Of a DNA stretch of 64,000 nucleotides, positions 27,872 to 43,766 are shown one piece after another. Each line of letters opens with the position of its first letter. Position 1 is the stretch's first letter. A program made the position numbers and the translations under genes. Source of the stretch: Bacteroidia bacterium (GTDB lineage Bacteria; Bacteroidota; Bacteroidia; 2-12-FULL-35-15). The notes beneath the pieces were generated by a model. The model was not told the DNA's origin, did no database searches, and saw only the letters and a program-made list of their open reading frames with translations. The stretch covers positions 280,334-344,333 of the forward strand of contig JAURXZ010000049.1 in the NCBI GenBank assembly GCA_030654175.1, read 5' to 3'.

Positions 27872-27977
27872 TTTGTTTTCTGCCGCAAAGGCGCAAAGGC
27901 GCAAAGCGAATTGTTGTGTAACTAATTTCTTTTAATAAAAAATTTGTAGAAAAGACCCTATAAATTTGTAGTACAAA
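27872..27977. repeat. Spacer with GGCGCAAA triplicate
   Basis: The gap between the aminotransferase and sugar transferase genes contains three successive GCGCAAA words at about 27884-27905. Such GC-richer words stand out from the AT-rich surroundings. Confidence 0.5.
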
Positions 27978-29186
27978 TTAACCAAGGATTTTTTTAACAG
28001 ATGCAGTCACCGCATTAATAACAGTTTTCACTAAGTCATCATTCAAATCATAAAATACTGGTAAAGAAATTTCACGTGAATAGTTATCATAGGTTACCGG
28101 ATAATTTTTAATGTCATACCCCAGGTTTTTGTAGAAGCTCATCATTGGCACCGGAATAAAATGAACATTGACAGAAACATCATAATCAAAAATTTCTTTA
28201 ATTATTGCATCTCGTTGTGCTTCGCTAATTCCTTTTATCCGTAATGGATACAGATGGTAACACGATGTTTTATCATCTGTTTTATATTCCGGTAATTGTG
28301 CCCATTCTAATTTAGAAAATGCAGTATCATATTGTTCAAATATACGCTGGCGCACTTTTAAAGTATCGTTATCATAACGCTCCAACTCCACTATACCGAT
28401 AGCTGCCATAATATCTGTCATATTGCATTTGTATCCGGCTTCTACCACATCATACCGCCAATTACCTTTAACTGTTTTAGCCAGTGCATCTTTATCTTGT
28501 CCGTGAAGTGTTTTTACACATAAGGTTTTATAAACGGCTTCATTATCAAATGGTGCAGGCAAATTTAAAGCTATAGCACCACCTTCGGCAGTTGTTAAAT
28601 TTTTTACGGCATGAAAAGAAAAAACAGAAACATCAGTTAAAGAACCCGCTCTTTTCCCTTTGTACCAGGCCCCAAATGAATGTGCTGAATCTGATAAAAT
28701 TAAAATACGATCCAGTGTTTTTTGTTCATCGGTTTGAGGAACAAAGTGGGCTTTATGTTTAATGATCAATGCATTCAAATGATCGTAATCGCAACAATGT
28801 CCGGCAAAATCAACCGGCATAATTACCTTTGTTTTTGAGGTAATTGCTTTTTCGATATTCGAAATGGAAATATTAAAATCATGTGGATTAACATCTACAA
28901 AAACTGGTGTTGCACCGCAATGTATCACCACATTGGCTGTTGCGCAATAGGTATATGCAGGCAAAATAACTTCATCTCCTTCTTTCACTCCGAACCAACG
29001 TAATATTATTTCGAGGCCGGCTGTTGCGCTATTTAAACACAATGTACTTTGGTTGCCACAATATTTGGTTAATTCTTTTTCAAATAATTTGGTACGTGGT
29101 CCGGTGGTGATCCATCCTGATTTCAGTACTTTGGTTACCTCATCTATTATTTTTTGATCAATGCGTGGTGGTGAAAATGGGATCAT
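27978..29186 (-). CDS. DegT/DnrJ/EryC1/StrS-type sugar aminotransferase
   Basis: This PLP enzyme (402 residues) transfers an amino group to a nucleotide-linked keto sugar. The fold markers are SGWITTGPRTKLFE, GDEVILPAYTYCATANVV, the PLP-nitrogen-binding SDSAHSFGA (Asp166), and the Schiff-base lysine in FHAVKNLTTAEGG (Lys195). GYKCNMTDIMAAIG and the C-terminal YHLYPLR also fit. It lies next to the initiating sugar transferase, as PglE/PglC-type pairs do, so a 4-amino-6-deoxy sugar is plausible. The exact substrate cannot be read from sequence. The ligase gene ends two bases before this gene's start, so they are probably in one transcript. Confidence 0.9.
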   Translation of the reverse strand: MIPFSPPRIDQKIIDEVTKVLKSGWITTGPRTKLFEKELTKYCGNQSTLCLNSATAGLEIILRWFGVKEGDEVILPAYTYCATANVVIHCGATPVFVDVNPHDFNISISNIEKAITSKTKVIMPVDFAGHCCDYDHLNALIIKHKAHFVPQTDEQKTLDRILILSDSAHSFGAWYKGKRAGSLTDVSVFSFHAVKNLTTAEGGAIALNLPAPFDNEAVYKTLCVKTLHGQDKDALAKTVKGNWRYDVVEAGYKCNMTDIMAAIGIVELERYDNDTLKVRQRIFEQYDTAFSKLEWAQLPEYKTDDKTSCYHLYPLRIKGISEAQRDAIIKEIFDYDVSVNVHFIPVPMMSFYKNLGYDIKNYPVTYDNYSREISLPVFYDLNDDLVKTVINAVTASVKKILG

Positions 29187-29187
29187 A

Positions 29188-30477
29188 TTATTGGTTGTTA
29201 GTTGTTAGTTGTTGGTTCTTGCTAATACTGTAACATAGTAAGGAATAAAAAAACGCATAAAATATAACACCAGCTTGTGTTTCGAGCATGGATTCAACTG
29301 AGAAATTAATGCCAGTAATAATAATAAATGCAGCAAATAAAAATGCTTTTTCTTTAAATGAAAAATAAAAAGGCACTATAAAACACAGCAAAAGAACTAT
29401 AAAACCAGCAACTCCCAAAGCTATAAAGGTGTTCAGAAATTGATTGTGCGAGTTTAGTTTATTTTCATATTCCGAGATCATTCCTTTTTCGAGATACTTT
29501 TCCAGCATTTTATCTTTAGCATCACCTGTTCCTGCGCCAATCCAGAAATTATCTTTAATGATTTCTGCCGCAGCTTTCCAAACTAAAATTCGGCTACCTG
29601 TACCATCAGTACTTGTAGTTATTTTTTTATTTTCTTCATTACTTCCTTTTATTGTTTCAGTTATAGTTGACAACTGAGGGATCCTTGTTGAAAAACGAGG
29701 TTTAAAATAAACATTAAAAAAAGTGAATGCCCCAATTAACAAGCTAACCATTAATAATGCAAGTACCGTTCGTTTTTTTATAACTAGCCATCTGAAAAAA
29801 TAAAGAACAAATAAAAGCAATCCTATCCAGCCAGCTTTAGAACTCAATAACAATATAAAAAGGGTTAATAAAAAAATAGCTGCAATCCATTTTAAATTTA
29901 ATTTCAACTCAGCTATATTTACCAAATGAAGAATGGAGAATAATGCAAAAACGCAATACATGGAAATATAACTGGGATGCAGAAATACTGATAAGTCGGT
30001 ATAATAAAAATAGCTTGCTCCCAAGTCATAAGGAATTCCGTATAATTCAACGTAAACAGGTTTTAAAAAGCGGTATGAAGCCCATATAAAACATACCATT
30101 GCATTCACAACAGAACCATAGATAAATAGTTTCAAATATTTATTGATATTGCTTTTTAATGCTTGAGAATGTGCTGAAAAAACAAGAGGAAATATTAAAA
30201 ATGACAATTTTGTTTCAATAGTTTCAAATCCAACTTTTGTATTTTCTGTGTAAAGCATACCCACTAAATATAACAGGTATAACAGCATCATTAATAGTAA
30301 AGATGGATTATTCAAATTGTTTTTTATTCCTTGAATAATCAATTTGGGAGCTGAAAGCCAATTAAGCAGTAACAACACAATAACCGGAGCAATGATGGGC
30401 GGATAACCTGAAAGTAAAAAAGCTATTGCGCCTGTAAGAAATATATGTGCGCGCTCATTGAATTTAAGTAGTGTCAT
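29188..30477 (-). CDS. O-antigen ligase family (WaaL/Wzy-like) membrane protein
   Basis: The 429-residue protein is almost entirely membrane-spanning (about 10-12 segments). It has the Wzy_C-type periplasmic loop and downstream SHNQFLNTFIALGVAGFIVLL motif of the O-antigen ligase/polymerase family. Members join glycan to lipid A or polymerise repeat units at the outer face of the inner membrane. A separate Wzy-like gene lies in the same cluster at 40.8-42.1 kb, so this one may be the ligase (inference). Its last residues (NQQLTTNNQ) are encoded by a GTTAGTT simple repeat running into the stop codon. Confidence 0.82.
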   Translation of the reverse strand: MTLLKFNERAHIFLTGAIAFLLSGYPPIIAPVIVLLLLNWLSAPKLIIQGIKNNLNNPSLLLMMLLYLLYLVGMLYTENTKVGFETIETKLSFLIFPLVFSAHSQALKSNINKYLKLFIYGSVVNAMVCFIWASYRFLKPVYVELYGIPYDLGASYFYYTDLSVFLHPSYISMYCVFALFSILHLVNIAELKLNLKWIAAIFLLTLFILLLSSKAGWIGLLLFVLYFFRWLVIKKRTVLALLMVSLLIGAFTFFNVYFKPRFSTRIPQLSTITETIKGSNEENKKITTSTDGTGSRILVWKAAAEIIKDNFWIGAGTGDAKDKMLEKYLEKGMISEYENKLNSHNQFLNTFIALGVAGFIVLLLCFIVPFYFSFKEKAFLFAAFIIITGINFSVESMLETQAGVIFYAFFYSLLCYSISKNQQLTTNNQ

Positions 30478-30479
30478 TA

Positions 30480-31115
30480 TTAGATACCTGTTACAATGGA
30501 GTAATTACTTGATATTAATGCTTTGTCATAATAATTTTCAAAATTTACTCCAGCTAAATAAAGTTTTTTATCAATACTTCTGCTATCACCAACAACCTTT
30601 GCCGGATTTCCTACAATTACGGAATAATCAGGAAAGCTGCCTTTTACAATGCTTCCTGCACCAACTATGCATCCTTTACCAATAGACGTTCCAGAGAGGA
30701 AAACACATGAAGCACCAATAAATGAATATTCTCCAATTTTTACGCCCTCAATTATATATCCAGGTCTTTCATTGGCAGGAATGTCAATAAATTTCTCTCC
30801 TAACAAACGAATTGAATTTTGACTACTATGCGTGTATATGCATGAGTGTGAGGCTATATGTACACCTTGTTCTATTTCAATTCCACCAATACCGTCAAGT
30901 AAACAATAGTGGCCGATCCATACATTGTTTTTAATATTGATATTCTTTTTGTCAACAAGTTTAACGGAAGAACTTATTCGGGTTTTATTGAAGAATTTTT
31001 TTTCTTTTGAATTATAAAAACCATAAACCATAAATGGCTTTTTGAAAAAAGCCAGCATATTTAAAAATAATGAAATGAAGAAACCCAGTGGTGACAAGTA
31101 TATTTTTCTAAACAT
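30480..31115 (-). CDS. Hexapeptide-repeat acyltransferase (left-handed beta-helix)
   Basis: This 211-residue protein has an imperfect hexapeptide ladder (VWIGHYCLLDGIGGIEIEQG, IGEYSFIGASCVFLSG, IGKGCIVGAGSIVKG) and the typical end VGNPAKVVG. The family transfers acetyl or similar groups from acyl-CoA to sugars, here probably O- or N-acetylation of a polysaccharide component. It is separated from the ligase gene by two bases and from the glycosyltransferase by ten, so it belongs to the same operon. It could act with FdtB as an FdtC-like N-acetyltransferase, but the sequence alone does not decide this. Confidence 0.85.
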   Translation of the reverse strand: MFRKIYLSPLGFFISLFLNMLAFFKKPFMVYGFYNSKEKKFFNKTRISSSVKLVDKKNINIKNNVWIGHYCLLDGIGGIEIEQGVHIASHSCIYTHSSQNSIRLLGEKFIDIPANERPGYIIEGVKIGEYSFIGASCVFLSGTSIGKGCIVGAGSIVKGSFPDYSVIVGNPAKVVGDSRSIDKKLYLAGVNFENYYDKALISSNYSIVTGI

Positions 31116-31125
31116 GGTCTACTCT

Positions 31126-32280
31126 TTATTTATTGCAAATATACTTATAATAAAGTTTCGCATTTTTCGGTGTATAGTTAAAAGATGCTTTGCGCGAATT
31201 CTCTTTAAATTTAGTCAATTCGGCATTGTTTTGAGAAAGATAAAGAATAAAATCAGCTATTTTCTGAACATCCGGTTTATCGAAAACGCGGCCACAATGG
31301 TGCTTTTCTATCAGGATACCCAATTCTGATTCGGTTGAAGATAATGCTAATATTGCAGAGCCCACTGCCATCATATAATATGTTTTACTTGGGACAGAGA
31401 TACTCTCAGCTCCCTGGCTTAAGGTGACAATTCCAATATCAGCGCAACTCAGGGAGTAGGGAAGCACCTCTTTATCCTGATAGGGTAGAAGTAAAACATT
31501 TTTCAGATTTTTTTCTTTAACACTTTGATCAATTTTAACTTTTTTTACTCCATCGCCAATTATTACAAAATGGATTTGTGGGTTGTTTTTTAAAATTTCT
31601 GCAGTGTCAACAATTGATTCTATATCGTGGGTCATTCCCAAATTCCCGGAGTACATCACTACCAATTTATCTGTTAGGTGATGTTGAATCGCAAATGAGT
31701 TTTCTGTTTTAGAAATTGGTTTTAAAAAATCAGAATTTACCCAGTTGGGAATGATAATTACTTCTTTTTTAGTGTATTTTTCTATAGCAGAAGCCAAATG
31801 TTTACCAAGAGTGAAAATAGTTGCAGCATTATTAAAGCAGCTGGTATTCAGCTTTTTCCACCTGCGGATTATAAAAGATGATTCTTTTAAAGCACCAAAA
31901 TTAATTAAAACATCCGGGTATAGATCCCAAACGATAAGATGATAGTTTTGATTACGGACTTTTTTAAAAAATAAACCTATGAATAGGATAAACGGGGGAG
32001 TTGTAACTAAAATCAGTTCTTTCTTTTTGCTTGAAAAAAGAACATAAAAAAATGAAAAAACAGTAAATAAACTCCAGGTAAATAAGCGTTTAACAGTTGA
32101 TGTACTATTGTGTTTTATAAAAGAAGTAACTTTTATTTTCGGATCTAAGGCTTTGTAATTACTTTCTACAATACCTGTGATTAAATGTATTTCAGCTCCT
32201 TGATCAGAAAATTCGTTTAGAATATCGATAGATAATTGTCGTGTTACCTGAACTATATATATATACTTTTTTGAACTCAT
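31126..32280 (-). CDS. GT4-family glycosyltransferase (WbuB-like)
   Basis: The protein is 384 residues long, with two Rossmann-like halves of GT-B fold. The C-terminal donor-binding region includes VVMYSGNLGMTHDIESIVDTA, IHFVIIGDGVKK, VLLLPYQDKEVLPYSLSCADIGIVTL and VPSKTYYMMAVGSAILAL, typical of GT4 enzymes. A hydrophobic stretch (LFTVFSFFYVLFSS, LFIGLFFKK) in the N-terminal half may dock it on the membrane, as in WbuB/PglA-type enzymes. It would add a sugar to the lipid-linked glycan on the cytosolic side. The sugar is not predictable. The gap before the next gene downstream is ten bases. Confidence 0.88.
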   Translation of the reverse strand: MSSKKYIYIVQVTRQLSIDILNEFSDQGAEIHLITGIVESNYKALDPKIKVTSFIKHNSTSTVKRLFTWSLFTVFSFFYVLFSSKKKELILVTTPPFILFIGLFFKKVRNQNYHLIVWDLYPDVLINFGALKESSFIIRRWKKLNTSCFNNAATIFTLGKHLASAIEKYTKKEVIIIPNWVNSDFLKPISKTENSFAIQHHLTDKLVVMYSGNLGMTHDIESIVDTAEILKNNPQIHFVIIGDGVKKVKIDQSVKEKNLKNVLLLPYQDKEVLPYSLSCADIGIVTLSQGAESISVPSKTYYMMAVGSAILALSSTESELGILIEKHHCGRVFDKPDVQKIADFILYLSQNNAELTKFKENSRKASFNYTPKNAKLYYKYICNK

Positions 32281-32367
32281 TCACTTCAATTTGATAATTT
32301 GATGATTTGATAATGAAAGCCGTATTAATTCTCAATTAGCACATTTTCAAATTTTCAAATTTCTTTT

Positions 32368-33375
32368 TTATTTCCCCTTATTTTTCGCGATCAATTTTTT
32401 TGTGTTAAACACATTATAACGATAAACAGTTTTTATGAGGTATTTGATCTTATTTTTTATTCCCGAATTATTAATTAAAGTAAAGTCTTTTAAGGGAACA
32501 TTAAAATCAGGATCAATTTGTTTTACAATGTTTTCATTTTCGTTCAACTCTTCGATATACGGAACGTATAAGTTATTAACTACAGGCATTGTAGGATGCC
32601 GCCAACCCAGATCAACAATGTCATTTTTAAAGAAACGCACATGATGGAAATGATAAAAGACAGCTTCGAATTTTGAATTATCCTTTTTATTAATAAAAGT
32701 TATTTGATTGCCTTTTCTTTCCACAAATGGGTATTGTTCAACATTCCAGGAAGCTAAGCCTCCTCCGAGATGCTGCAATACATGAACTCCTTTAAAACGG
32801 GTTGTCCAATCGTCAAGATATTTCTGATCTCCAAATTTCCCATCTTCATAACGATCGTAGCACCATTCAATACAGGCATCCCGCCACCAGTTTAATGCTT
32901 CCAGGCCTTCTTTGTTATTAACAAAAGTTATAAATTGAACGCAATATATACCTGACGAAGTAGTCCGGTTAAATTTTGGCGGGTAACGATGTTCTGTTAT
33001 AAGTATTGATTTATCGCCCATTTCGTCAAATAACAATTTGGGATTTTGGTAAAAATATAGATCGGCATCAACGTAGGTACAGCTTGGAACATTATACTTT
33101 TCAATAACATAAAGAATGGTTGAAGAAGTGGATGTCCAGCAATATTCAGCTTTTGTTCTGGTTGGTTTTACAGCTAACAATTTCGAATCTTCAAAATCTT
33201 TTAAAGGAATAATTGTAGCCTTTTTAAGCTTTAATTTGGTTAAAATGTCAAAACTGGCATCGTCAAAAGCGAAAATATAAAGATGAAAATCATCGCATGT
33301 TTTTTCTAATGAGCGATACATGGTCAAGCCTCGGGTGAGGTAAAAACTATCAAATAAAGTGCAGAAATTATACAT
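32368..33375 (-). CDS. GT-A-type glycosyltransferase (GT8-like)
   Basis: The 335-residue protein begins MYNFCTLFDSFYLTRGLTMYRSL, as in family-8-like retaining transferases that start with a short beta strand and helix. A DxD metal-binding motif is visible in SCTYVDADLYFYQNP. Downstream YWTSTSSTILYVIEKY-like and FGDQKYLDDW segments fit the same fold. I place it as a polysaccharide glycosyltransferase by motif and location in the cluster; the donor is unknown. The spacer after it (32281-32367) is made of TTTGATAATTTGATG-type simple repeats. Confidence 0.72.
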   Translation of the reverse strand: MYNFCTLFDSFYLTRGLTMYRSLEKTCDDFHLYIFAFDDASFDILTKLKLKKATIIPLKDFEDSKLLAVKPTRTKAEYCWTSTSSTILYVIEKYNVPSCTYVDADLYFYQNPKLLFDEMGDKSILITEHRYPPKFNRTTSSGIYCVQFITFVNNKEGLEALNWWRDACIEWCYDRYEDGKFGDQKYLDDWTTRFKGVHVLQHLGGGLASWNVEQYPFVERKGNQITFINKKDNSKFEAVFYHFHHVRFFKNDIVDLGWRHPTMPVVNNLYVPYIEELNENENIVKQIDPDFNVPLKDFTLINNSGIKNKIKYLIKTVYRYNVFNTKKLIAKNKGK

Positions 33376-33408
33376 TGATAAGTTTTTTAAATAGTTTTTT
33401 CGTTGTTT

Positions 33409-33423
33409 AAACCTGTCAGGTTT
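33409..33423. repeat. AAACCTGTCAGGTTT palindrome
   Basis: A 15-base inverted repeat lies between the GT8-like gene and fdtB. It may be a weak hairpin or a REP-like remnant. No long T run follows on the minus strand, so a terminator role is doubtful. Confidence 0.35.
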
Positions 33424-33427
33424 TGAT

Positions 33428-34513
33428 TTAAAATTTATTCATTACTTCTACTACCCTCTGAACATCATGTTCCGTATGAAAAAAAGAAATTGGTAAACTC
33501 AATGTTGTATTATGAATTTCTTCGCTGATCGGAAATTGTTGATTTTTAAAGAGATCCTTTAAGGCTACTTGATTATTAGGCGAAACAGGATAATGTATTT
33601 CTGTTTTAATATTATTTTCTAATAAATATTCTTTTAATGCATCACGTTTCAGATGACGGATATTGAATATGTGATATACATCGAAATAATCCGAATCAAC
33701 TACAGGCTTAATAAAATCAGTTTTCAGATTATTCAAATAAATGGAAGCAAGTTTTCGTTTATGACTATTTATTTCATCCAGTCGTTTTAATTTAATGGAA
33801 AGGAAAGCGGCCTGTACTTCATCCAGGCGGGAATTATAACCAATTAACTCGTTATAATATTTTTTATCAGAGCCGTAGTTTCTTAATCTGCGAATTGTTT
33901 TTGTTAAATCAGTATCGTTACAAACAATAGCTCCTGCATCGCCAAGAGCGCCTAAATTTTTTGTTGGATAAAAGCTGAATGCGCCAAACTCGCCAAATGT
34001 ACCCGTGTGCTTGTTTTTATAGGTTGCACCGTGAGATTGAGCACAGTCTTCAATTAATTTCAGATCATATTTTTTACAAAGTGCCATAATAGGCTCCATG
34101 TCACATGATTTTCCATATAGGTGAACCACAACAATGGCTTTTGTTTTATTAGTGATACTTGCTTCAATTTTTGCAGGATCAATATTATACGTTTCTAAAG
34201 ATGGTTCTACAAGAACCGGTATCATATTAGTTTGAAGGACACTTATTATTGTTGCAACATAAGTATTCGATGGGACTATTATTTCACTTCCTGCTTCAAA
34301 ATTAAATGCGGCAATTGAAAGAGTTATAGCATCAAGTCCAGAAGCTACACCAATACAATTTGAAGCCTTATTATATGAAGCAAATTCAGTCTCGAATTTT
34401 TTTACATTTTCTCCAAGAATATACCAGCCGGATTTTAAAACAGACTTAAAACTTGAAATATATTCTTCGTGGAATGGCTCATTTAACGAAGCCAGATTTT
34501 CATATTCAATCAT
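33428..34513 (-). CDS. fdtB: FdtB-like dTDP-sugar 3-aminotransferase
   Basis: This PLP-dependent aminotransferase of the DegT family is 361 residues long from [14 protein letters not shown]. The markers are [25 protein letters not shown] (Asp156) and the Schiff-base Lys in [14 protein letters not shown] (Lys185). FdtB makes dTDP-3-amino-3,6-dideoxy-D-galactose from the 3-keto sugar produced by FdtA, and the fdtA-like gene precedes it directly. The frame is open to 34561, but the ATG at 34513 overlaps the fdtA stop codon by eight bases and gives the usual N-terminus, so I choose it. rmlA and rmlB, needed for the precursor, are not in the window. A QdtB-type product (the glucose isomer) is the main alternative. 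Confidence 0.85.
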
Positions 34514-34874
34514 TGTATTTTTCATAGATATAATCATTTTGTTCGAAATATTCTGATGCAAGAACCATTAATATCGCATCTTCTGAGAAACTGTGCATTT
34601 GATGCCAATCTTTTGGTTCAAGGATCAAACATTTGTCGGGTGAATCCAGCACAAATTCATTTTTCTCTTCATTATCGTTATTGAAAATGGTGCAGGTTCC
34701 TTTAATACATATTGCCGCCTGAATTGTCTTTACATGGCGGTGTCCGCCACGAATTGAATCATCTACACCATAAATATAAAAAATCCGCTTTATATCAAAA
34801 GGGACTACTTTTTCAATAACAGTAAGATTACCGCGTTTATCGATAAATGTTTTTAAATTTAAAAGGTATGCCAT
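34506..34874 (-). CDS. fdtA: FdtA/QdtA-like dTDP-4-oxo-6-deoxyhexose 3,4-ketoisomerase
   Basis: This 122-residue cupin protein fits the ketoisomerase family: [27 protein letters not shown] carries the metal- or substrate-binding His motif (RGGHRH), and [25 protein letters not shown] is the conserved second half. The enzyme moves the keto group of dTDP-4-keto-6-deoxyglucose from C4 to C3. FdtA makes the galacto and QdtA the gluco product, and these cannot be told apart safely by eye. It is translationally coupled to the downstream aminotransferase by an eight-base overlap. Confidence 0.88.
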
Positions 34875-34967
34875 AGAATTTGAAAATTGCTCAATTTGAT
34901 GGTTTGAAAATTGGTTTTGTCAATAAAAACAAAATTAGCCATATTATTTGTGAAATCTGAGGCCGAT

Positions 34968-35159
34968 CTATTTTTGTTTTCTTTTAAAAAAATAGGCTTT
35001 TAATGCCGCTTTATTAAGGTTCATGCTTTCCGGAGATTCAAAATCAAAAATCAGATCATAATGGTTTGATAGATAATTTACCAATTTTTGTTCGTTAAGT
35101 ATCCTGCATGGATATTTAGCTTCATAAATGTAGGTATTGTATGAATCGTAGAATGGGAA
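34968..35159 (-). pseudogene. Remnant of a small enzyme gene, possibly TIGR04325-type methyltransferase
   Basis: The reading frame covers residues such as YNTYIYEAKYPCRILNEQKLV, NYLSNHYDLIFDFESPES and KAALKAYFFKRK. It resembles, by eye only, the C-terminal end of TIGR04325-family methyltransferases found in polysaccharide clusters. The frame continues upstream to an ATG at 35222, but that part encodes the hairpin terminator of the neighbouring gene and is not credible coding sequence. The N-terminal bulk of the enzyme is missing. The likely history is truncation when the metalloprotease gene arrived (inference). Confidence 0.4.
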
Positions 35160-35196
35160 AAACAAAAAATCCAAAGCTAATATAGCTTTGGATTTT
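35160..35196 (-). terminator. Rho-independent terminator of the metalloprotease gene
   Basis: Arms of 14 perfectly paired bases (35166-35179 and 35183-35196, AAAATCCAAAGCTA type) with a three-base loop lie 49 bases after the metalloprotease stop. The minus-strand transcript continues into a T run. It would stop readthrough from the upstream half of the polysaccharide cluster. Confidence 0.85.
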
Positions 35197-35244
35197 AGGA
35201 AAAAAATATTTGATTTAGGCATAGGATACTATAAATTGCGAGAT

Positions 35245-36741
35245 TTAATTTATACCTACTCTATAAAATCTACTGTTTTCAATTATGTAATTATAACCAG
35301 CAATAGAAGTCATCGAGTTAGTACCCGCCCAGGCTATACCACCTAATCTAGTATATGCACCTGTAGTTGGCGATACCTTATAATACAAATCGTTTTGTAC
35401 GATAAAAAGCATATTGTTAGTTACATTTGCGCACATTCCACTTATCCCTGCCCAAACTGCACCACCTAATTGAACATAACTTCCTGTATTCGGATCAATT
35501 TTATATAACCTATTATTTTGAACAAGGTGAATACTTCCGTTTAAAGCACACATCCCTTTCGTCCCCGGCCAAACTGCACCTCCTAATTGAACATAAATTC
35601 CTGTGTTAGAATCAACCCGATATAACCTACTGTTTTCAACAATATATAAATACCCATTTAAAGTACACATTCCTTCCGTTCCTGGCCATACCGCACCACC
35701 TATTTGAACATAACTTCCTGTATTGGCGTCAACCCTATATAGTCTACTATTCTCAACAAGGTAAAGATACCCGTTTAAAGTACAGATTGCTTCAGTACCC
35801 GTCCAATTGCCTGCACCTACTTGTGAATATGTTCCATCAGAGGGGTTAATACGATAAAGCTTGGTATATTGAACTGCATAAGCAAATCCATTTAAAGAAG
35901 TCATAGGATAAGTATTTGGCCAAACCGCTGGTCCCTTCTGAGTGAAATCTGCCCATTGTGGATAAACTAATTCAGCGGATAAACCATCAAAATAGCTGAA
36001 TCCGACCCATTGATTGTTTGCTGTGCTTCCATTCATTACAGAACCTGCATCTGTAGTTGGAATCCCATGCAATATTTCCCATCCGCTAGATTCTCCTAAT
36101 GCTGCATAATTCGTGTGTCTGTAACCAATACAATGTCCAAGTTCATGAACAAGATTATAAACTTTTTGTGCGTGAGGTATATATGCACCACTATTAAAAT
36201 CTAAGTTAATATTAATTTGAGCGTAAGGTGTCGATGGATTTGGCGGGAATCCAGCTGAAGCAATTACATTATTAGCCAGTAAACCAAAATCACTTGTAAC
36301 AAGGATGTTTCCTGATGAGCTAGTTTTGTTCATTGTAATAACAGCACCCGTAAGGTTTGTCCAATGAGCAACAGCATCCTGAAGTGCAAGATCCCAATCA
36401 CTTGGAATAGAACTATTACTATAAACATTAATATTACTTACAGCAGCCCAAGTTAAATAAGCAGAACTCCACAATGCTTGTTTATTTTGACTATTAAAAA
36501 CTGGAGATTTTGAAAGAGAATCTAAGTAATGTTTACTAAATGATATATCTCCTTCAACCAAAATAGATGTACCATAATCTTCAACTAATTTAGTATTAAA
36601 TCCAAGCTTTTTTAAAACAGGAATATACTGATCCAAACTTTTGTCAGTCATAGTGTTAGCTCCTTTTAAATCTTTAAATTCTTTTTCCTTTGAACAACTG
36701 AATGCTAAAGTTAAAATCGCAACGTAAAATAATACTCTCAT
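35245..36741 (-). CDS. Lipoprotein metalloprotease (HELGH type, M57-like) with six-bladed tectonin-like propeller
   Basis: This 498-residue protein has a lipobox (LAFSC, Cys16), placing it as a membrane-anchored lipoprotein. The zinc motif HELGHCIGYRH (His199, Glu200, His203, His209) fits an M57/dual-action HEIGH metallo-peptidase, and GSVMNGS nearby supplies the Met-turn-like Met. The C-terminal half (about 270-498) has six near-identical blades of ~39 residues (GGAVWPGTEGMCTLNGYLY, NSRLYRVDxNTGxYVQ), a tectonin or beta-propeller pattern that often binds glycans. It sits between polysaccharide genes but is not one. It has its own terminator and a gene remnant beside it, signs of insertion. 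A -7-like box (TATTTTTG, minus strand, about 36783-36790) may drive it. Confidence 0.85.
   Translation of the reverse strand: MRVLFYVAILTLAFSCSKEKEFKDLKGANTMTDKSLDQYIPVLKKLGFNTKLVEDYGTSILVEGDISFSKHYLDSLSKSPVFNSQNKQALWSSAYLTWAAVSNINVYSNSSIPSDWDLALQDAVAHWTNLTGAVITMNKTSSSGNILVTSDFGLLANNVIASAGFPPNPSTPYAQININLDFNSGAYIPHAQKVYNLVHELGHCIGYRHTNYAALGESSGWEILHGIPTTDAGSVMNGSTANNQWVGFSYFDGLSAELVYPQWADFTQKGPAVWPNTYPMTSLNGFAYAVQYTKLYRINPSDGTYSQVGAGNWTGTEAICTLNGYLYLVENSRLYRVDANTGSYVQIGGAVWPGTEGMCTLNGYLYIVENSRLYRVDSNTGIYVQLGGAVWPGTKGMCALNGSIHLVQNNRLYKIDPNTGSYVQLGGAVWAGISGMCANVTNNMLFIVQNDLYYKVSPTTGAYTRLGGIAWAGTNSMTSIAGYNYIIENSRFYRVGIN
35263..35935 (-). repeat. Six tandem ~117-bp propeller blade repeats
   Basis: Blades recur every ~117 bases at DNA level (for example WPGT coding words near 35797, 35678 and 35560). 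The middle copies are nearly identical, which points to recent duplication or gene conversion. Confidence 0.75.
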
Positions 36742-36932
36742 AATGGATAAATAGGATTAGTTAATTAATTTATAAATTTGTGCAAAAATAGTAATTACTT
36801 TCAGATAATATAAAAGTAATTGTATTATTCTCTAACTAGAGCCTATACTGCAAAAACAGCTTTCCCATCCTGTATTTTAATAAAACCGGGGGAATTAACT
36901 CTTTAAGCATTGATCTATATTATCGACTATTT

Positions 36933-37658
36933 TTATTTTTTGTTCTTTAACACGTATATATTTCCGAAATACAAATCATTGTTTTTGGGCAAAACATAAG
37001 AAATCAATCCAAGTAAATTATTTAGAAAGGAAAACGGAATTATAAGTCCCCAAGCCAAATAGCCGGGTAAATATTTTTTAAAAGTGGTATATAAATAACT
37101 GTTGATCAATAAAAAGATCAATCTAAAATCAGTTAAATATTTTTTATGCTCAACGATCTCAAATCCATGTTTATCAAACATGTGTTTTAATCCAAAAGAA
37201 GAATATCGTGCAAAATCATAAGGTTGTTCATGTTCACCCCATATAAAAGGGATCGTAACCAAACAATTTCCGCCAGGTTTTACAACTTTGCTAATTTGTT
37301 TAAAAAAGGTATCAGGATTAAAAACATGTTCCAACACTTCAAAAAACACTAAAGAATCAAAGGTGTTTTCTTCAAATGGGAACGTTTCTCCATCATAAAA
37401 AACATCAATATATTCTCGTTGGTGTTTATGGCCCGATTGTTCAATGTCCATTCCAATATAAGTGGTGACTTTATTGAATAAGCCAATATAAGGTTTGCTG
37501 CCACTTCCTACATCCAATGTTTTTCCGGAAACAAATTTGGAATATTTTTTAACATTTATATACATTGCACTTCTTCCTAAAAAAAACGGGTTTATGAAAA
37601 AACCAATCATACCGGGACGAAAAAATTGCTGTAATAAATATGATTTTATTTTCATCAT
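36933..37658 (-). CDS. Class I SAM-dependent methyltransferase
   Basis: The 241-residue protein carries SAM motif I (KTLDVGSGSKPYIGLF), an acidic motif II region (YIGMDIEQSGH) and FPFEENTFDSLVFFEVLEHVFNPDTFFKQISKVVKPGGNCLVTIPF, the standard class I methyltransferase series. The C-terminal third has two hydrophobic segments (LIFLLINSYLYTTFKKYLPGYLAWGLIIPFSFLNNLLGLISYV), so it may sit on the membrane. In this setting it probably methylates a sugar or a lipid-linked glycan intermediate. The substrate cannot be predicted. It follows the 22-bp inverted repeat at 37693-37746. Confidence 0.85.
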   Translation of the reverse strand: MMKIKSYLLQQFFRPGMIGFFINPFFLGRSAMYINVKKYSKFVSGKTLDVGSGSKPYIGLFNKVTTYIGMDIEQSGHKHQREYIDVFYDGETFPFEENTFDSLVFFEVLEHVFNPDTFFKQISKVVKPGGNCLVTIPFIWGEHEQPYDFARYSSFGLKHMFDKHGFEIVEHKKYLTDFRLIFLLINSYLYTTFKKYLPGYLAWGLIIPFSFLNNLLGLISYVLPKNNDLYFGNIYVLKNKK

Positions 37659-37692
37659 GTTAATTCAATTTTGTTAACGGAATCATCCACAA

Positions 37693-37746
37693 TTCTCGAC
37701 AAGCTCGAAATGACCAAGCGCGCTGTCATTTCGAGCTTGTCGAGAA
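37693..37746. repeat. Perfect 22-bp inverted repeat with palindromic loop
   Basis: Arms at 37693-37714 and 37725-37746 are exact reverse complements (second arm begins GTCATTTCGAGCTTGTC). The ten-base loop contains the palindrome AGCGCGCT. It lies in the gap between the membrane glycosyltransferase gene and the methyltransferase gene. The size and composition fit a REP-like or terminator element. Confidence 0.8.
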
Positions 37747-37814
37747 AATTGTGTGTAAGCGTTTTAATTCCATTTTTTGAAAATATTATTCTATTTAATC
37801 TTTTATAAAATATA

Positions 37815-39560
37815 TCAATTATGCCTTGAATAAATGAATATTAAATCATTCTCCCAAGGTAAGGTAATTAATTGGGTGTTTGTTTTTTTATCAGAAAGAT
37901 GATCGAATATTTTATAATTATTCTCGGCTGAAAGCAGCATAAAACAAATATTATTCTTTTCTTTTAAAGCGGATTTATTGTAAGATTGAATAAAAAACTC
38001 TTTTGGAGAAATACCTGAATCATACCAGGCATAGCCGATCAGTTTTTTATTATAAATATAGCTAAGCCCAATGAGTTGGCTGGAAGTGAATAGTGCATCA
38101 GGATTCTCGCTTTCTATAATGGGTTGCAGTGTTTTTATTGTATTCATCAATTGTTTATCAATAAAAATAGTTTCATTGGTAGATTGAATTTTTAAAGGCT
38201 CAGTTTGTTCCCACAAGTGGCCATTGATTTTATAGGGGTCAAGAACTAATCCGGTAAAAACATCAAAGGTTGACTTTACAGCTAATATAATGAGAAGAAT
38301 AGAAATGCTAACATTTAGTTTGAATTTTTCTAATCCCGAAAAAGTGTAAACTAAATAGATAAACAAGAACCAGGTATTTAAGAAAAATAAAATTTGCACG
38401 TGTAAAAAGTTTCCGGTCCCTAAAGCACAAATAAAGGGGAGAAACAATAAGGAAAGGACAACAAAAGCCTTTTCCAGAAAAAAATCTGTATGAATTATTG
38501 CTTTGGTTTTTGTGGAAATATACAGTATCGAAAACAAAAAAAGCAATGCAATGTAAATTAACGGAGCGGTTGAATTATGTTTTGAGCCTGACAAAAAATA
38601 ACCTTGTTTGTAAAAAGAATATATCATTGATAATATAACGAAAAGCAAGAGGAACCTTCCAACAGGTTTGATCTTGGTGAATCGATTTTGAATGGAAATA
38701 ACAAAGGCGATAATTAAATAAAATAAGCCGGGAACATAATTTACAAGGTGACAGCTCCAAAAATCTAAAAACCCAATTTTATAATTATAAAGTACATAAT
38801 TTATATCATGAGTATAAAATTTTGAAATAAAAGTTATTACATAGGTATACTCATTCAAGACTTGTATTGGTGAAGTAGGAAAGCTTATAAGAGAGAATGA
38901 AAGGATAGCAAAAAATGAATATGTTATAATATTCAAAAACGAAAACCATCGTATTTGTTTGAATAGGAGCACCTGAACACAGATAAACAGAACTGAAAGT
39001 AATAGTGTGGTGGGTATCTTCACAAAAAATTCGAGTCCGCTAATAATGCCCAGCGCGCCACTTATTATAAGGTTCTTTTTTACATTTTGCGAATTGGTAA
39101 ACGCCAGGAAAATAAGTCCTAAAAATAGATCTCCGAAAATTAACGTATAATGATTATAGGACAATGCCTGAGGCCCCAATCCATAGCCGGCAAAAGTTCC
39201 AATTATACCAAATAAACTTAAAGAGATGAGTGTAGTTTTTTCATTAGCCTTCTTTACGAAATTGAATTTTTTCAACAATCCAAAGAGCGTATATGATAAA
39301 AATACGCTTCCTGCAATGGTTAAAAGTAATCTTGCCAACCTGAAAAAGATAATTCCGGATCCGATGTATGATAATGTATTATTGGTTAAATAATGGAAAG
39401 CAGAAAGCCAGAATGGGAATTCGATCAAGTTGTTGTAGCCTGTAATATAATACCCTTCATCCGACAAATTAAAGCCCTTATTCATCGACCATACTATTAT
39501 TATAAGGCTAATGAAGGTTGCAAAAAGAAGGAAAAAGAGTAAGCGTTTTTGTTTTAACAT
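37815..39560 (-). CDS. Multi-pass membrane protein, GT39/ArnT-like glycosyltransferase
   Basis: The 581-residue protein has about 12-14 hydrophobic segments. After the first segment comes NLSDEGYYITGYNNLI, the short acidic first-loop motif of C-type (polyprenyl-phosphate sugar-using) glycosyltransferases such as GT39. The soluble C-terminal part (about 480-581) is of moderate length. This family works on the outer face of the inner membrane, using lipid-linked sugars. The assignment rests on topology and the one motif, so other polytopic families are possible. It is followed at 39574 by another glycosyltransferase gene in the same direction. Confidence 0.6.
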   Translation of the reverse strand: MLKQKRLLFFLLFATFISLIIIVWSMNKGFNLSDEGYYITGYNNLIEFPFWLSAFHYLTNNTLSYIGSGIIFFRLARLLLTIAGSVFLSYTLFGLLKKFNFVKKANEKTTLISLSLFGIIGTFAGYGLGPQALSYNHYTLIFGDLFLGLIFLAFTNSQNVKKNLIISGALGIISGLEFFVKIPTTLLLSVLFICVQVLLFKQIRWFSFLNIITYSFFAILSFSLISFPTSPIQVLNEYTYVITFISKFYTHDINYVLYNYKIGFLDFWSCHLVNYVPGLFYLIIAFVISIQNRFTKIKPVGRFLLLFVILSMIYSFYKQGYFLSGSKHNSTAPLIYIALLFLFSILYISTKTKAIIHTDFFLEKAFVVLSLLFLPFICALGTGNFLHVQILFFLNTWFLFIYLVYTFSGLEKFKLNVSISILLIILAVKSTFDVFTGLVLDPYKINGHLWEQTEPLKIQSTNETIFIDKQLMNTIKTLQPIIESENPDALFTSSQLIGLSYIYNKKLIGYAWYDSGISPKEFFIQSYNKSALKEKNNICFMLLSAENNYKIFDHLSDKKTNTQLITLPWENDLIFIYSRHN

Positions 39561-39573
39561 AAATAGTATAACC

Positions 39574-40806
39574 TTATGAATTGACCTTATTTAACTCGTT
39601 TTTAATGATTTCATCCATTAATTTGGCCCGGTTTTCAATTGAATGCTCCGTTAATGTCCTTTTTTGACCCGCTTTCGCAATTTTTTCTCTTTCTAAAGGG
39701 TTATCAATTAACCATTTAACTTTTTCAATACATTCTTCAACTGATTTGTAGGTAATAATTTCTTTACCGGGTTCAAACAAATCAGTAATGTTGTCTTTCC
39801 AATCTGTGACTAAGCAGGTTCCGACACCGGTTGCCTCAAACAGGCGGATGTTACCGGCACATTTATCAGCAACTTCGCCATGTATGTTAAAACAAATTTT
39901 TGCTTTCGAAAGTAATTTGAACATCTCATAGCCAAATACAGGGGGCTTGGAACTTTTTAATAATTCTTTAGAATAATTTTTTATTGACACATCCCCATAA
40001 CCTTTATTATTATTGAGAACAGGTATTTTCTCAATTAAACTATTCAGGTGCAATTTTTTTAAAAGGTTAATGATAATGTACATGCTTTTTTTAACAAATA
40101 TTCTTTTTCCTGATTCCAAATTGCAATACAAGTCCATATCAATTCCCGCTTTGAGCATCTTTTCGATATATTCAATTCTGCTGGTATGAAATCCCGAACC
40201 GGCATATAAAGAACCGGAAAATAAAAAATTGGATTCGGGATAACGATTATTGGTATTTATATTATCAAGGGCAGAGGTTTCGAAGCCATGGTATAATAAA
40301 TAGGAGTTTATACCTAATTTTGCAAGTTCATTTTTTAAGCAAGGTATGCAGGTGAACATTATATCGAATAACTTGAATTTTTCGGCAGTAACTGAATTAT
40401 AAGGAGCACAAATTTGGCCAATCAGTAATTTTATGGAGGGTACTTGTTTTAATAAAATTTCTTTCCAATGTTTATCTATAAACGAAAAATCATCGATCCA
40501 GACTACTTCAGGTTTATAGAATTGCAGCTGCTTAATAATTAAATCCTGTAAGGAAATTTCCTGTGGTAAATTATTTTCTTTTTTCCAGGTGGATTGCAAA
40601 ATTTCAGCATTGGAAATAATATCATAAGCTGCTACCCCCATCTTATTTAAGTTTTTTGTAAAAGAACTTACCATTTCAAAAGACTCGTTTACCAGCAGAT
40701 TGTATTGATCTGTGTAAGATTTTAAATGAACCTCGGGATTCTGTAAATAAAAGTTTTTTATAAACTGGGGATAATTACTTGTTACTCTTACAAAACGATA
40801 ACTCAT
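39574..40806 (-). CDS. CgeB-like / group 1 glycosyltransferase
   Basis: The 410-residue protein has the C-terminal donor-site signature IRLFEATGVGTCLVTDWKDNITDLFEPGKEIITYKSVEECIEKVKWLI, seen in CgeB/Glyco_trans_1_2-type enzymes, with the acidic pair in FEA-type context. The N-terminal half is a GT-B acceptor domain (RVTSNYPQFIKNFY, VVWIDDFSFID, ICAPYNSVTAEKFK). No membrane segment is present, so it acts from the cytosol. Next to the Wzy-like gene it probably adds a sugar of the repeat unit. The donor is unknown. Confidence 0.8.
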   Translation of the reverse strand: MSYRFVRVTSNYPQFIKNFYLQNPEVHLKSYTDQYNLLVNESFEMVSSFTKNLNKMGVAAYDIISNAEILQSTWKKENNLPQEISLQDLIIKQLQFYKPEVVWIDDFSFIDKHWKEILLKQVPSIKLLIGQICAPYNSVTAEKFKLFDIMFTCIPCLKNELAKLGINSYLLYHGFETSALDNINTNNRYPESNFLFSGSLYAGSGFHTSRIEYIEKMLKAGIDMDLYCNLESGKRIFVKKSMYIIINLLKKLHLNSLIEKIPVLNNNKGYGDVSIKNYSKELLKSSKPPVFGYEMFKLLSKAKICFNIHGEVADKCAGNIRLFEATGVGTCLVTDWKDNITDLFEPGKEIITYKSVEECIEKVKWLIDNPLEREKIAKAGQKRTLTEHSIENRAKLMDEIIKNELNKVNS

Positions 40807-40833
40807 ATTATTAATTTAACAATTTGACAATGA

Positions 40834-42123
40834 TTAACTAACTTTTTTATTATTTAAAATTGTTAGTGCTATTAAAATAAAAGGCAAAATCCCCCCTGTT
40901 ATAATGCAGGTGAGCAAAGGCGCACTTAAAATTATATAAATATAACTAAAAAAGATACCGTAATATCCTATATGTAATTTTAATGAGTTGAAAAAACTAA
41001 AAAGTAAAGCAAAAATGCCGGAAAATAGCGCTACTCCCCAATATCCAAGGTTCATAAAACCATCAGACACTATGCCATTATTAGCAAATGCAGTAGGCGC
41101 ACCCCAATAGACCTTAGTGATCAGAAATCCAACCCGCATATCGTAAGGACTTTTTACAAACTGGTTAAAGAAATGAGTTTCAGCGAAATAAAAAGGTCGA
41201 CCATCAAAAAAGTCGAAATAAAATTGAGTTAATAAGGCTGGGATAAAAAAGAATCTGTTAATAAAAGTCCCGCTCAAAATAGGCTTTGGCGCACCAATAA
41301 AGTGATCAATTATAGGAAATAAGGCAAATACTATTATTGCGATCAGAAAGAAATAACTGATTTTTGAAATATAATCTTTTCCAATGTAGTAGAAAAAAAT
41401 TACGATCATAGGGGTAAAATAAACAAGCTTGTTTCCCGAGATCACAAAAAGGTATAGTAATATTAAAACAAAAAGGCCTATTAACATTGGTTTTTTATGA
41501 ATCATAAAAAATACCAGTGCAACCGGAATGATTGTTTTGGCTTCGAAATGATATAAATAAGCGAGGTATCCATTTAACTTTTCGGAGAACATTTCTCTTG
41601 TTGAGTATATTTCCGAAAGAAGCAAGGTATTCAAATTGACGTTTAATTTAAACGTAGCAATGATGGGTATTAATAAAAGGATAGAGAGCGCTATTAATGC
41701 AGTGCCCTTATATTGAGTAGGGATGCTAACTTGTGGAATAGGAAATGAAATATATGGTGTAATAAGAAAAACAGAAACAAAAAAAACGTTGGATACAAAA
41801 GGTCCAATGTGCATATTACCCATCGAAAAAAGAATAGCATTTGGTATATAAAAAAAGAAAATTAGAAGCAGATAAATTGAATACAAAAATTTATTCCGGC
41901 TGTATATCGTGTAGGAGGCTGCTAATAATGAAAGAAAGACAACTTTAGTAATAATGTATTTAGATAAATTAAAGTCGGCTTTAAAGCCCATGTAATTATA
42001 GGTTACCGAGATCAGGTTATGGTAATACAACTCCAAAGCAATATAAATGACTGCTATCAGGGCATTCAGAATAAGGAAGTCTTTTGTTAATTTTATTTTA
42101 AAAGACGACATGTTAAGATTCAT
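40834..42123 (-). CDS. Oligosaccharide repeat-unit polymerase (Wzy-like)
   Basis: The 429-residue protein is hydrophobic throughout (about 10-12 membrane segments). A longer periplasmic loop near residues 260-330 is rich in aromatic residues (FYFDFFDGRPFYFAETHFFN). Wzy proteins have little sequence conservation. The call rests on topology, length and position beside a flippase and glycosyltransferases. It would link repeat units at the outer face of the inner membrane. An unrelated membrane transporter or acyl modifier is the main alternative. Its gene end is 27 bases from the next glycosyltransferase gene. Confidence 0.7.
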   Translation of the reverse strand: MNLNMSSFKIKLTKDFLILNALIAVIYIALELYYHNLISVTYNYMGFKADFNLSKYIITKVVFLSLLAASYTIYSRNKFLYSIYLLLIFFFYIPNAILFSMGNMHIGPFVSNVFFVSVFLITPYISFPIPQVSIPTQYKGTALIALSILLLIPIIATFKLNVNLNTLLLSEIYSTREMFSEKLNGYLAYLYHFEAKTIIPVALVFFMIHKKPMLIGLFVLILLYLFVISGNKLVYFTPMIVIFFYYIGKDYISKISYFFLIAIIVFALFPIIDHFIGAPKPILSGTFINRFFFIPALLTQFYFDFFDGRPFYFAETHFFNQFVKSPYDMRVGFLITKVYWGAPTAFANNGIVSDGFMNLGYWGVALFSGIFALLFSFFNSLKLHIGYYGIFFSYIYIILSAPLLTCIITGGILPFILIALTILNNKKVS

Positions 42124-42149
42124 ACTTAATATTTTTATTCAAAAAATTA

Positions 42150-42254
42150 TTTGGGCGTTTCCCCTTTCTGAAAAAGAAAGGGGGCGGGCTTTACGCTTCA
42201 ATCTTCCCTTCCGCAAGGGCGTAAGAGAAGGATTTACGCTGCAATCCCTAACGC
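42150..42254 (+). repeat. Structured intergenic repeat, copy A
   Basis: The copy begins TTTGGGCGTTT and ends GCAATCCCTAACGC. It has a first hairpin with arms CCCCTTTCT and AGAAAGGGG, and a second arm pair around ATCTTCCCTT and GAAGGAT. It lies between the Wzy-like and flippase genes. It is one of five copies (A-E), all between 42.1 and 50.3 kb. Confidence 0.75.
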
Positions 42255-42294
42255 AGCATAACTTATAAATTGTTCATCAAAACATATTTAATTG

Positions 42295-43572
42295 TTAAGT
42301 TTTTGATATTATCTTTTTCTCATATCCGTTCACAATAAAATAGATCATTGCGCAATAGATCAAATGCATCACAATTTCGATAGCTACGTATATTTTTAAA
42401 AAATCATAGATATCTAAATCTTTGAATAACAGCAAGGAACATATCGCAGCGAAATAAGTTATTTGCCAAATGCTATTAAGACGAATTTTTTCGAAGGTTA
42501 TAAAAATAGAAGAAAACGTAGAACCAATAAAATTCAGGACAAAACTAAATATTAAGATCTTGGAATAGTCGCCTGATACAGCATATCTATCGCCAAATAC
42601 GAAGCCAAATAATTGTGGGCCTAAAAATTCGATCACAATAAATTCAATAAAAATAACAGTTAAAAGCAGGTATAGTATATTCTTTACATCATTTTTGATG
42701 CTCAACGAATTATGTTTTTTTTCAGTAGTTTGTTGAAAAAACACCTGTGATATGGTGGAAGCAATAAATATAAGCGGGATGGATAATACTAATTTGGAAA
42801 GATCTAAATAGCCTACTATTTCGGTTGAATACATCTTATTAATAAATAGAAAAGGCAATATAGTTGCAGCGCTGCTGAGTAGAGTAGGGAGTACATTAAA
42901 CTTAGGATAATCGATGTATTTCTTAAAAACGTAGCCTATTTTTTTTCTGGATACAAATCTTAATTCATACTTATTTTTGAAGATTTGCCGTATTCCGGCT
43001 ATAACGTTTGCGAAATTGCCTGATAGATCACCAATGAACAATCCTCCCGGAATTTTAAAAAATCCTAAAATGCCTTGGACAGCGCCTTCCACAGTTCTTC
43101 TTACTATTTTATTACTTGTAGATGCTTTAAAAGCTTTCTGACGAATTAACCAATAATTGATACTTTGATAGATACCAAATATGGAACTAACAAAAGGCAA
43201 GAGGTAAAGGTAGTTTGAATATTTTTCGGGGAAATTTATTAGATGAACCACTTCATTTTTGAAAAAAATAATTATCAAAAGCAAAATAGAACTGAAGATG
43301 ATATTTATAATAAAAGTAAGCGACAGGATATTTGCAGCTTCGTTATTATTTTTTGGTAATACAATGGTGGCCTCATACCTTAAAGCCGACACAATGGTAA
43401 GCATACCAAAAATATTAAGGTATACCGCCATGGCACCAAAATCTTCCGGTGAATAGATTCTTCTAAGAAAAGGATGTAATAATAAAGGGATACTTTGGGC
43501 GACAATTGCCCCTATAACTAATATAAAAGTGTTTTTGGTAAACTCAGACTTTGATAATAGTCGTTTTAACAT
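42295..43572 (-). CDS. Polysaccharide flippase (Wzx-like, MATE/MOP superfamily)
   Basis: This 425-residue, 12-segment membrane protein begins with the MOP/PST N-terminal pattern (FTKNTFILVIGAIVAQSIPLLLHPFLRRIYSPEDFGAMAVY). A repeated second half (YPKFNVLPTLLSSAATILPFLFINKMYSTEIVGYLDLSKLV) follows. It would move lipid-linked repeat units across the inner membrane. It is the first polysaccharide gene in transcription order. A copy of the structured intergenic repeat lies on each side. Confidence 0.88.
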   Translation of the reverse strand: MLKRLLSKSEFTKNTFILVIGAIVAQSIPLLLHPFLRRIYSPEDFGAMAVYLNIFGMLTIVSALRYEATIVLPKNNNEAANILSLTFIINIIFSSILLLIIIFFKNEVVHLINFPEKYSNYLYLLPFVSSIFGIYQSINYWLIRQKAFKASTSNKIVRRTVEGAVQGILGFFKIPGGLFIGDLSGNFANVIAGIRQIFKNKYELRFVSRKKIGYVFKKYIDYPKFNVLPTLLSSAATILPFLFINKMYSTEIVGYLDLSKLVLSIPLIFIASTISQVFFQQTTEKKHNSLSIKNDVKNILYLLLTVIFIEFIVIEFLGPQLFGFVFGDRYAVSGDYSKILIFSFVLNFIGSTFSSIFITFEKIRLNSIWQITYFAAICSLLLFKDLDIYDFLKIYVAIEIVMHLIYCAMIYFIVNGYEKKIISKT

Positions 43573-43643
43573 GAAAAAGGGTAGATTTTTAACAAAAACT
43601 GCTCCGAATTAGATACTTTATATCTCTTTCATTGCGAAAGTTT

Positions 43644-43737
43644 GCGTTAGGGATTGCAACGAAAATCCTTTTTGTCCTTACAAAAAGATTGAAGTGAAAA
43701 GCCCGCCCTTTCTTTTTCAAGAAAGGGAACGCCCAAA
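43644..43737 (-). repeat. Structured intergenic repeat, copy B (inverted)
   Basis: On the minus strand it begins TTTGGGCGTTCCC and ends GCAATCCCTAACGC. The first hairpin arms are CCCTTTCTT and AAGAAAGGG, and the second pair is AATCTTTTTGT and ACAAAAAGGATT. It separates the flippase gene from rny. Confidence 0.75.
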
Positions 43738-43766
43738 TGAATTTAAATCAATAACGATTAATAAAA

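Follow-up and report, generated by a model that had tools for sequence, protein, structure and literature searches.

Animal matrix metalloproteases (MMPs) are arranged as a pro-region, a catalytic domain, and a C-terminal hemopexin propeller that acts as an exosite. Tachylectin-2 is a five-bladed propeller with a GlcNAc/GalNAc-type binding pocket. Several mechanisms of latency are described among the metzincins: vertebrate MMPs are reported to use a cysteine switch, the catalytic zinc of astacin zymogens is described as blocked by the Asp of an F-E-G-D-I motif (PMC9629494), given elsewhere as the pro-region motif FXGDI (PMC9848320), and an aspartate switch is reported for karilysin and fragilysin as well. 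One account describes tachylectin-like propellers of bacteria in secreted proteins that also carry catalytic domains, groups VCBS, tachylectin, and PQQ propellers together, and assigns a GW motif at the link between strands D and A to the sugar pocket (PMC8023676). For the Peptidase_M57 family, one gene of Kordia algicida OT-1 is reported to rise 13-fold in the algicidal phase (PMC10565126), and none of the literature matches listed is a structural, mechanistic, or latency study of M57.

Here, we describe an M57 lipoprotein gene from a Bacteroidia bacterium in which a metzincin domain is joined to a six-bladed propeller, a new domain combination of known parts. All coordinates refer to the window, which is the whole 64,000-nucleotide stretch of DNA that was analyzed.

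The interrupted polysaccharide cluster

The gene is located in a cluster that codes for a sugar transferase, two DegT aminotransferases, FdtA, an O-antigen ligase/polymerase-type protein, a hexapeptide transferase, glycosyltransferases, methyltransferases, and a flippase-type protein, and that is bounded by RNase Y; the cluster is probably of the O-antigen or capsule type. The features at the site are as follows.

33428..34561, minus strand: DegT-family sugar aminotransferase gene, next in the cluster
34506..34874, minus strand: FdtA-like sugar ketoisomerase gene (Pfam FdtA, WxcM-like C-terminal), the right flank, 91% identical in congener G027
34970..35150, minus strand: 3' remnant of a TIGR04325 methyltransferase gene, approximately residues 201-260 of 261, in frame, no start
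35151..36863, minus strand: insert of 1713 bp without counterpart in the G027 cluster, from DNA alignment of both remnants to G027 (L008) and flank colinearity, with borders good to a few bases
35166..35196, minus strand: intrinsic terminator with a 14-bp perfect stem, a 3-nt loop, and a T-rich tail, from hairpin stability
35245..36741, minus strand: lipoprotein of 498 aa with an M57 metzincin and a six-bladed propeller, from the ORF and a Pfam M57 match above cut-off
36864..36910, minus strand: 5' remnant of the TIGR04325 gene, its start and first 15 codons (MLKELIPPVLLKYRM), from a 47-bp ungapped match to G027
36933..37658, minus strand: intact class-I methyltransferase gene (241 aa), the left flank, 89% identical in G027

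The undisturbed locus is seen in G027 (locus L015), one of the 36 genus genomes compared (own included), where the same gene order extends over window positions 27281-45305. Identities of the homologues are mostly 68-91%, with three lower values (52%, 42%, and 26%), and the colinear stretch ends inside the last gene. The G027 cluster has no protease, and its TIGR04325 gene is intact (261 aa, 218.9 bits) between the upstream methyltransferase gene and fdtA. In the window this gene retains its first 47 bp (36910-36864) and its last 181 bp (35150-34970); relative to G027, approximately 555 bp are gone and 1713 bp are in place, the central two thirds having been replaced by one gene with its own terminator. 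We regard the insertion as genuine, and the evidence for it is good. The preliminary description had the module interrupting glycan genes and abutting the tail of a broken methyltransferase gene, both of which hold, and it missed the 5' piece, which belongs to one continuous match with the upstream methyltransferase gene.

The ORF at 34968-35222 is a chance reading through the terminator region and then the 3' end of the TIGR04325 gene; it matches profile positions 176-212 of 234 (E 2.6e-4) at 20.3 bits, under the cut-off of 80, which is in line with its being a fragment. Over 51 aa, the 3' remnant shares 72.5% identity with the intact G027 protein, compared with 85-91% for the neighboring fdtA, degT, and upstream methyltransferase genes, which fits relaxed constraint. 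Outside this locus, nothing in the window's genome matches the G027 protein at E 1e-30. The methyltransferase gene may have been partly deleted before the insertion.

An intact homologue (60%) of the TIGR04325 gene directly adjoins fdtA in congener G033, homologues in G028 and G012 are in the same region as other cluster genes, and in G022 (L009 and L067) the first 24 residues or more remain, at a contig end. A different methyltransferase gene (302 aa) precedes the TIGR04325 start in G022, downstream of the 241-aa methyltransferase gene, and with this different gene at the same place, the junction may have seen gene exchange more than once. The protease is present in none of the 35 other genus genomes, and the same gene order without a remnant was looked for in distant relatives and not found. 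G027 and the window form a natural before-and-after pair, in which methyltransferase loss and protease gain are both measurable.

The strong terminator ascribed earlier to the module is borne out by 14 perfect pairs 3' of the stop codon; the 121-nt terminator region has a z-score of -4.3, and none of 200 shuffles was as stable. A terminator scan found 2 sites versus 2.8 expected in shuffles, so the count is not itself evidence and the call rests on hairpin stability. The insert borders carry an imperfect 11-nt inverted repeat (35150-35160, AGAATGGGAAA; 36861-36871, TTTCCCATCCT), which is probably a coincidence. A stretch of 16 nt around one border is unique in the genome as an exact match, and its 5 inexact copies do not exceed the 9 of the control. 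Transposon ends were rejected as a reading of this repeat, as it is not a repeated element (one border searched) and a simple insertion would not delete approximately 555 bp.

The window has several other features. An inverted repeat (AATTACTTTCAGAT and ATATAAAAGTAATT, 36793-36821) lies just upstream of the protease gene and is possibly an operator. A palindromic REP-like repeat at 37695-37750 (TCATTTCGAGCTTGTCGAG and its complement) has 37 genome matches with at most one mismatch, compared with none for the control. The 4417-aa ORF at 7951-21204, with 39 SprB-repeat stretches and a type IX secretion signal domain (CHU_C), codes for a giant gliding-type adhesin.

Protease, pro-region, and propeller

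A single ORF (35245-36741, minus strand) spans the protease and the propeller, and its parts are as follows.

36694..36741, minus strand: lipoprotein signal peptide ending in Cys16, then S-K-E-K-E, from sequence
36478..36693, minus strand: pro-region (residues 17-88) with the motif L-V-E-G-D-I (Asp65 codon, 36547-36549), from the M57 alignment and likeness to the astacin motif
35947..36477, minus strand: metzincin catalytic domain (residues 89-265), from an AF2 model with pLDDT of about 90 through most of the domain
36115-36147, minus strand: zinc motif HELGHCIGYRH (residues 199-209), from sequence
35248..35952, minus strand: six-bladed propeller, from repeats, model, and sequence likeness to tachylectin-2, with an N-terminal closing strand (residues 264-269) and blades at residues 272-310, 311-349, 350-388, 389-427, 428-468, and 469-498, the last blade having three strands

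The preliminary description of a lipoprotein with an HELGH motif is upheld, with the zinc motif and a lipobox-like start at Cys16 in one 498-aa ORF; Cys16 is invariant in all 23 aligned M57 rows. The start is near the surface export signal reported for Capnocytophaga, C-X-K-(D/E)2-X after the Cys (PMC5080379), but one position off, as C-S-K-E-K-E has K at +3, E at +4, and K at +5 where the consensus has D/E.

Membership of the M57 family, previously suggested for checking with a profile, is confirmed by the Peptidase_M57 match (Pfam PF12388; E 7.4e-9, 36.1 bits versus a gathering cut-off of 21). The zinc motif HEXXHXXGXXH and the Met-turn (S-V-M, residues 234-236, with M236) are invariant in 23/23 M57 rows, and the position after the third zinc His, Thr210 in the window protein, is Thr in at least 90% of the rows. 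The nearest solved folds to the catalytic model are karilysin (best Z 16.8, rmsd 2.7, 147 aligned) and MMPs (Z 15-16), and in sequence searches the M57 family profile picks up MMPs, serralysins, and myroilysin. The window protein has no match to Pfam Matrixin at E 0.01; some M57 relatives do match it.

Asp65 sits 134 residues ahead of the first zinc His and is invariant in all 23 aligned M57 proteins, within the motif V-[ED]-[GK]-D-[IM] (Gly in at least 90%). Because Asp65 is invariant and the motif resembles the astacin FXGDI, we propose an aspartate switch for M57 in which Asp65 would be a zinc ligand. The invariant Asp makes the latency mechanism of M57 open to direct test.

The propeller part had low confidence in the whole-protein model and was therefore refolded alone, without an alignment. 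The result is a closed six-bladed ring (pLDDT 84.8, pTM 0.85) of 24 strands, in which a single leading strand and five full blades are followed by a final three-strand blade, in agreement with the six repeats of 30-41 aa each and with the number of blades claimed at first. Its best fold matches are six-bladed NHL domains (Z 24.2, rmsd 2.2, 229 aligned), the structurally nearest propellers are NHL domains and the designed Pizza6 proteins, and there is no natural lectin among the best 50 rows of either fold listing. Among sequences of solved structures, the propeller alone matches tachylectin-2 (1tl2, E 9.8e-5) and 3kif (E 1.2e-5), a propeller lectin derived from tachylectin-2, and no others at E up to 0.1. 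Bacteroidota also have a small family of exported stand-alone six-bladed propeller proteins (L005, L060, L061, and L062). The tachylectin-2 family of Pfam (PF14517) matches the relative L061 and does not match the window protein. With a profile of the window propeller and its four stand-alone relatives, designed 'Cake' and PQQ-type propellers score above tachylectin-2, which fits the reported VCBS-tachylectin-PQQ grouping (PMC8023676). The Trp linking strand D to the next strand A is present in all six blades. These similarities suggest that the propeller is a putative glycan-binding module, remotely similar to tachylectin-2.

The blades had been described as nearly identical and recently expanded, neither of which stands. 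Blade pairs are 27-77% identical with a median of 47%, and blades 2-4 alone are alike (59-77%). The median is below the 60% by which 'highly repetitive' propellers are defined in one account (PMC9218822), and identical residues share the same codon just somewhat more often than by chance (blades 2-3, 16/29 versus 12.6 expected; blades 2-4, 16/22 versus 9.0; blades 3-4, 15/25 versus 10.1). Recent blade amplification is rejected on these grounds.

Distribution and origin of the gene

We found no orthologue of the protease-propeller gene. A full-length search of 198 relatives at E 1e-10, among which the genus genomes G001-G035 lie (judged from numbering), matched five genomes: the window's own, three in the protease part only, and one (G009) in the propeller only. 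At E 1e-15, 13 of 395 phylum genomes matched, and all but its own were confined to query residues 5-273. A scan of genome contigs gave 27 M57 loci, all 27 with C-terminal tails that are Ig/FN3-like or PKD-like (by eye), DUF5648, or lacking; in a Pfam scan of three of these proteins DUF5648 was matched in L042, and L044 was assigned to it by resemblance. When a propeller-family profile (built from the window and four stand-alone propeller loci) was run against translations of at least 80 aa between stops from 77 loci, it returned only the window's own gene and the stand-alone propeller loci. A fusion of M57 with the propeller was thus found nowhere else in the genomes or loci searched, for which the genome samples (198, 395, and 198) overlap and cover part of the phylum.

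Carriage by phages or plasmids was considered and rejected. Phage records have no match to the protein, and the plasmids give one protease-only match (Aureibacter, 30.5% identity over 30% of the query). Viral contigs gave no match with the single protein or with the propeller alignment, and at least one weak protease-only locus with the M57 alignment.

The catalytic-domain tree has 31 rows, with other M57 loci left out as near-duplicates or by choice. The window row is placed with Balneolaceae, Kofleriaceae, and Alistipes rows (all three from metagenome bins) at 85/88 support, at an open fork, and no starred set holds it; the nearest protease domains are weakly grouped rows from Balneolota, Myxococcota, and Bacteroidota. 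Arrival by horizontal transfer, as suggested in the preliminary description, is plausible and is favored because the gene is absent from the rest of the genus and groups in the tree with these rows. Foreign composition was looked for as well and gave no signal, the insert having 34.4% G+C versus 35.5% for the window.

Interpretation and relation to known systems

The explanation that we prefer, with a probability of roughly 0.6 for the whole, is an insertion into the methyltransferase gene together with an outer-surface zymogen metzincin whose propeller serves as an exosite. One gene with its own terminator has replaced the middle of the TIGR04325 gene in an O-antigen/capsule-type cluster, and its product would be displayed on the outer membrane as a zymogen lipoprotein, with Asp65 of V-E-G-D-I ligating the catalytic zinc until the pro-region is cut. 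The mature zinc protease would then be aimed by the propeller, a substrate- or glycan-binding exosite that would hold a glycan or glycoprotein, as the hemopexin propeller aims animal MMPs. As a side effect, methylation by the TIGR04325 product would be lost and the surface glycan altered. A broader and more tentative proposal is that the M57 proteases are a bacterial branch of the metzincins whose latency depends on an aspartate switch (V-[ED]-G-D-[IM] in most). The window member would have acquired a lectin-type six-bladed propeller and come independently to a membrane-anchored layout like that of the MMPs, and its gene would have entered the cluster as a single transcription unit, disrupting a glycan methyltransferase gene.

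It is conceivable, with a lesser though real chance of being correct, that an ordinary secreted-type nutritional or predatory protease landed here by chance, has no glycan role, and carries its propeller as a protein-protein or structural module. The C-terminus appears to be swappable, since other M57 lipoproteins bear unrelated C-terminal domains or none, the induction of the Kordia algicida gene in the algicidal phase (PMC10565126) is in keeping with such a role, and among the fold matches listed the structural neighbors of the propeller are not lectins. Against this, tachylectin-2 and 3kif are the sole matches of the propeller alone among solved sequences, and tachylectin-like propellers are reported with catalytic domains in secreted bacterial proteins (PMC8023676). 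We consider it improbable that the protease serves to trim or mature surface glycoproteins or capsule-bearing proteins of the cell itself and that its cluster position was selected: the gene is surrounded by polysaccharide genes and shares their orientation, but it has its own terminator and disrupted one of them, and the similar clusters of G027 and G033 lack it. Action on the glycans or glycoproteins of the cluster, raised in the preliminary description, does not follow from the position of the gene, because the insertion destroyed a member of the cluster. Very little weight can be given to misassembly or misbinning. The assembly does comprise 51 contigs, with contamination estimated at 2.25%, but the gene is internal to a contig of 553,868 bases, pieces of a single gene border it on either side, and its flanks are colinear with those of G027.

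The preferred reading of a latent, propeller-guided surface protease places the protein between several known systems. The Peptidase_M57 lipoproteins of Bacteroidota (PF12388) resemble it in the catalytic domain, the pro-region motif, and, in the loci examined, a lipoprotein-type start; at their C-termini the proteins examined carry an Ig/FN3-like or other domain (DUF5648 in L042) or none, and a propeller was seen in none of them. The stand-alone exported propeller proteins of Bacteroidota have the same blade family and number (26-30% identical) without the protease domain. Likeness to tachylectin-2 and bacterial tachylectin-like propellers lies in the blade sequence, with the linker Trp in every window blade, but unlike tachylectin-2 the window propeller has six blades and is fused to a protease. 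Astacins (M12A) share the FXGDI-like pro-region motif but have Glu after the third zinc His, where the window protein has Thr. The catalytic fold is common to karilysin and the MMPs (M10; Z 16.8), and the order of parts in MMPs, from pro-region through catalytic domain to propeller, is mirrored here, although the hemopexin propeller of the animal enzymes is four-bladed (1fbl), no similarity in sequence between it and the window propeller was detected, and the cysteine switch reported for vertebrate MMPs contrasts with the aspartate switch proposed here. If its propeller is of the lectin type, this metzincin would give bacteria a counterpart of the animal MMPs.
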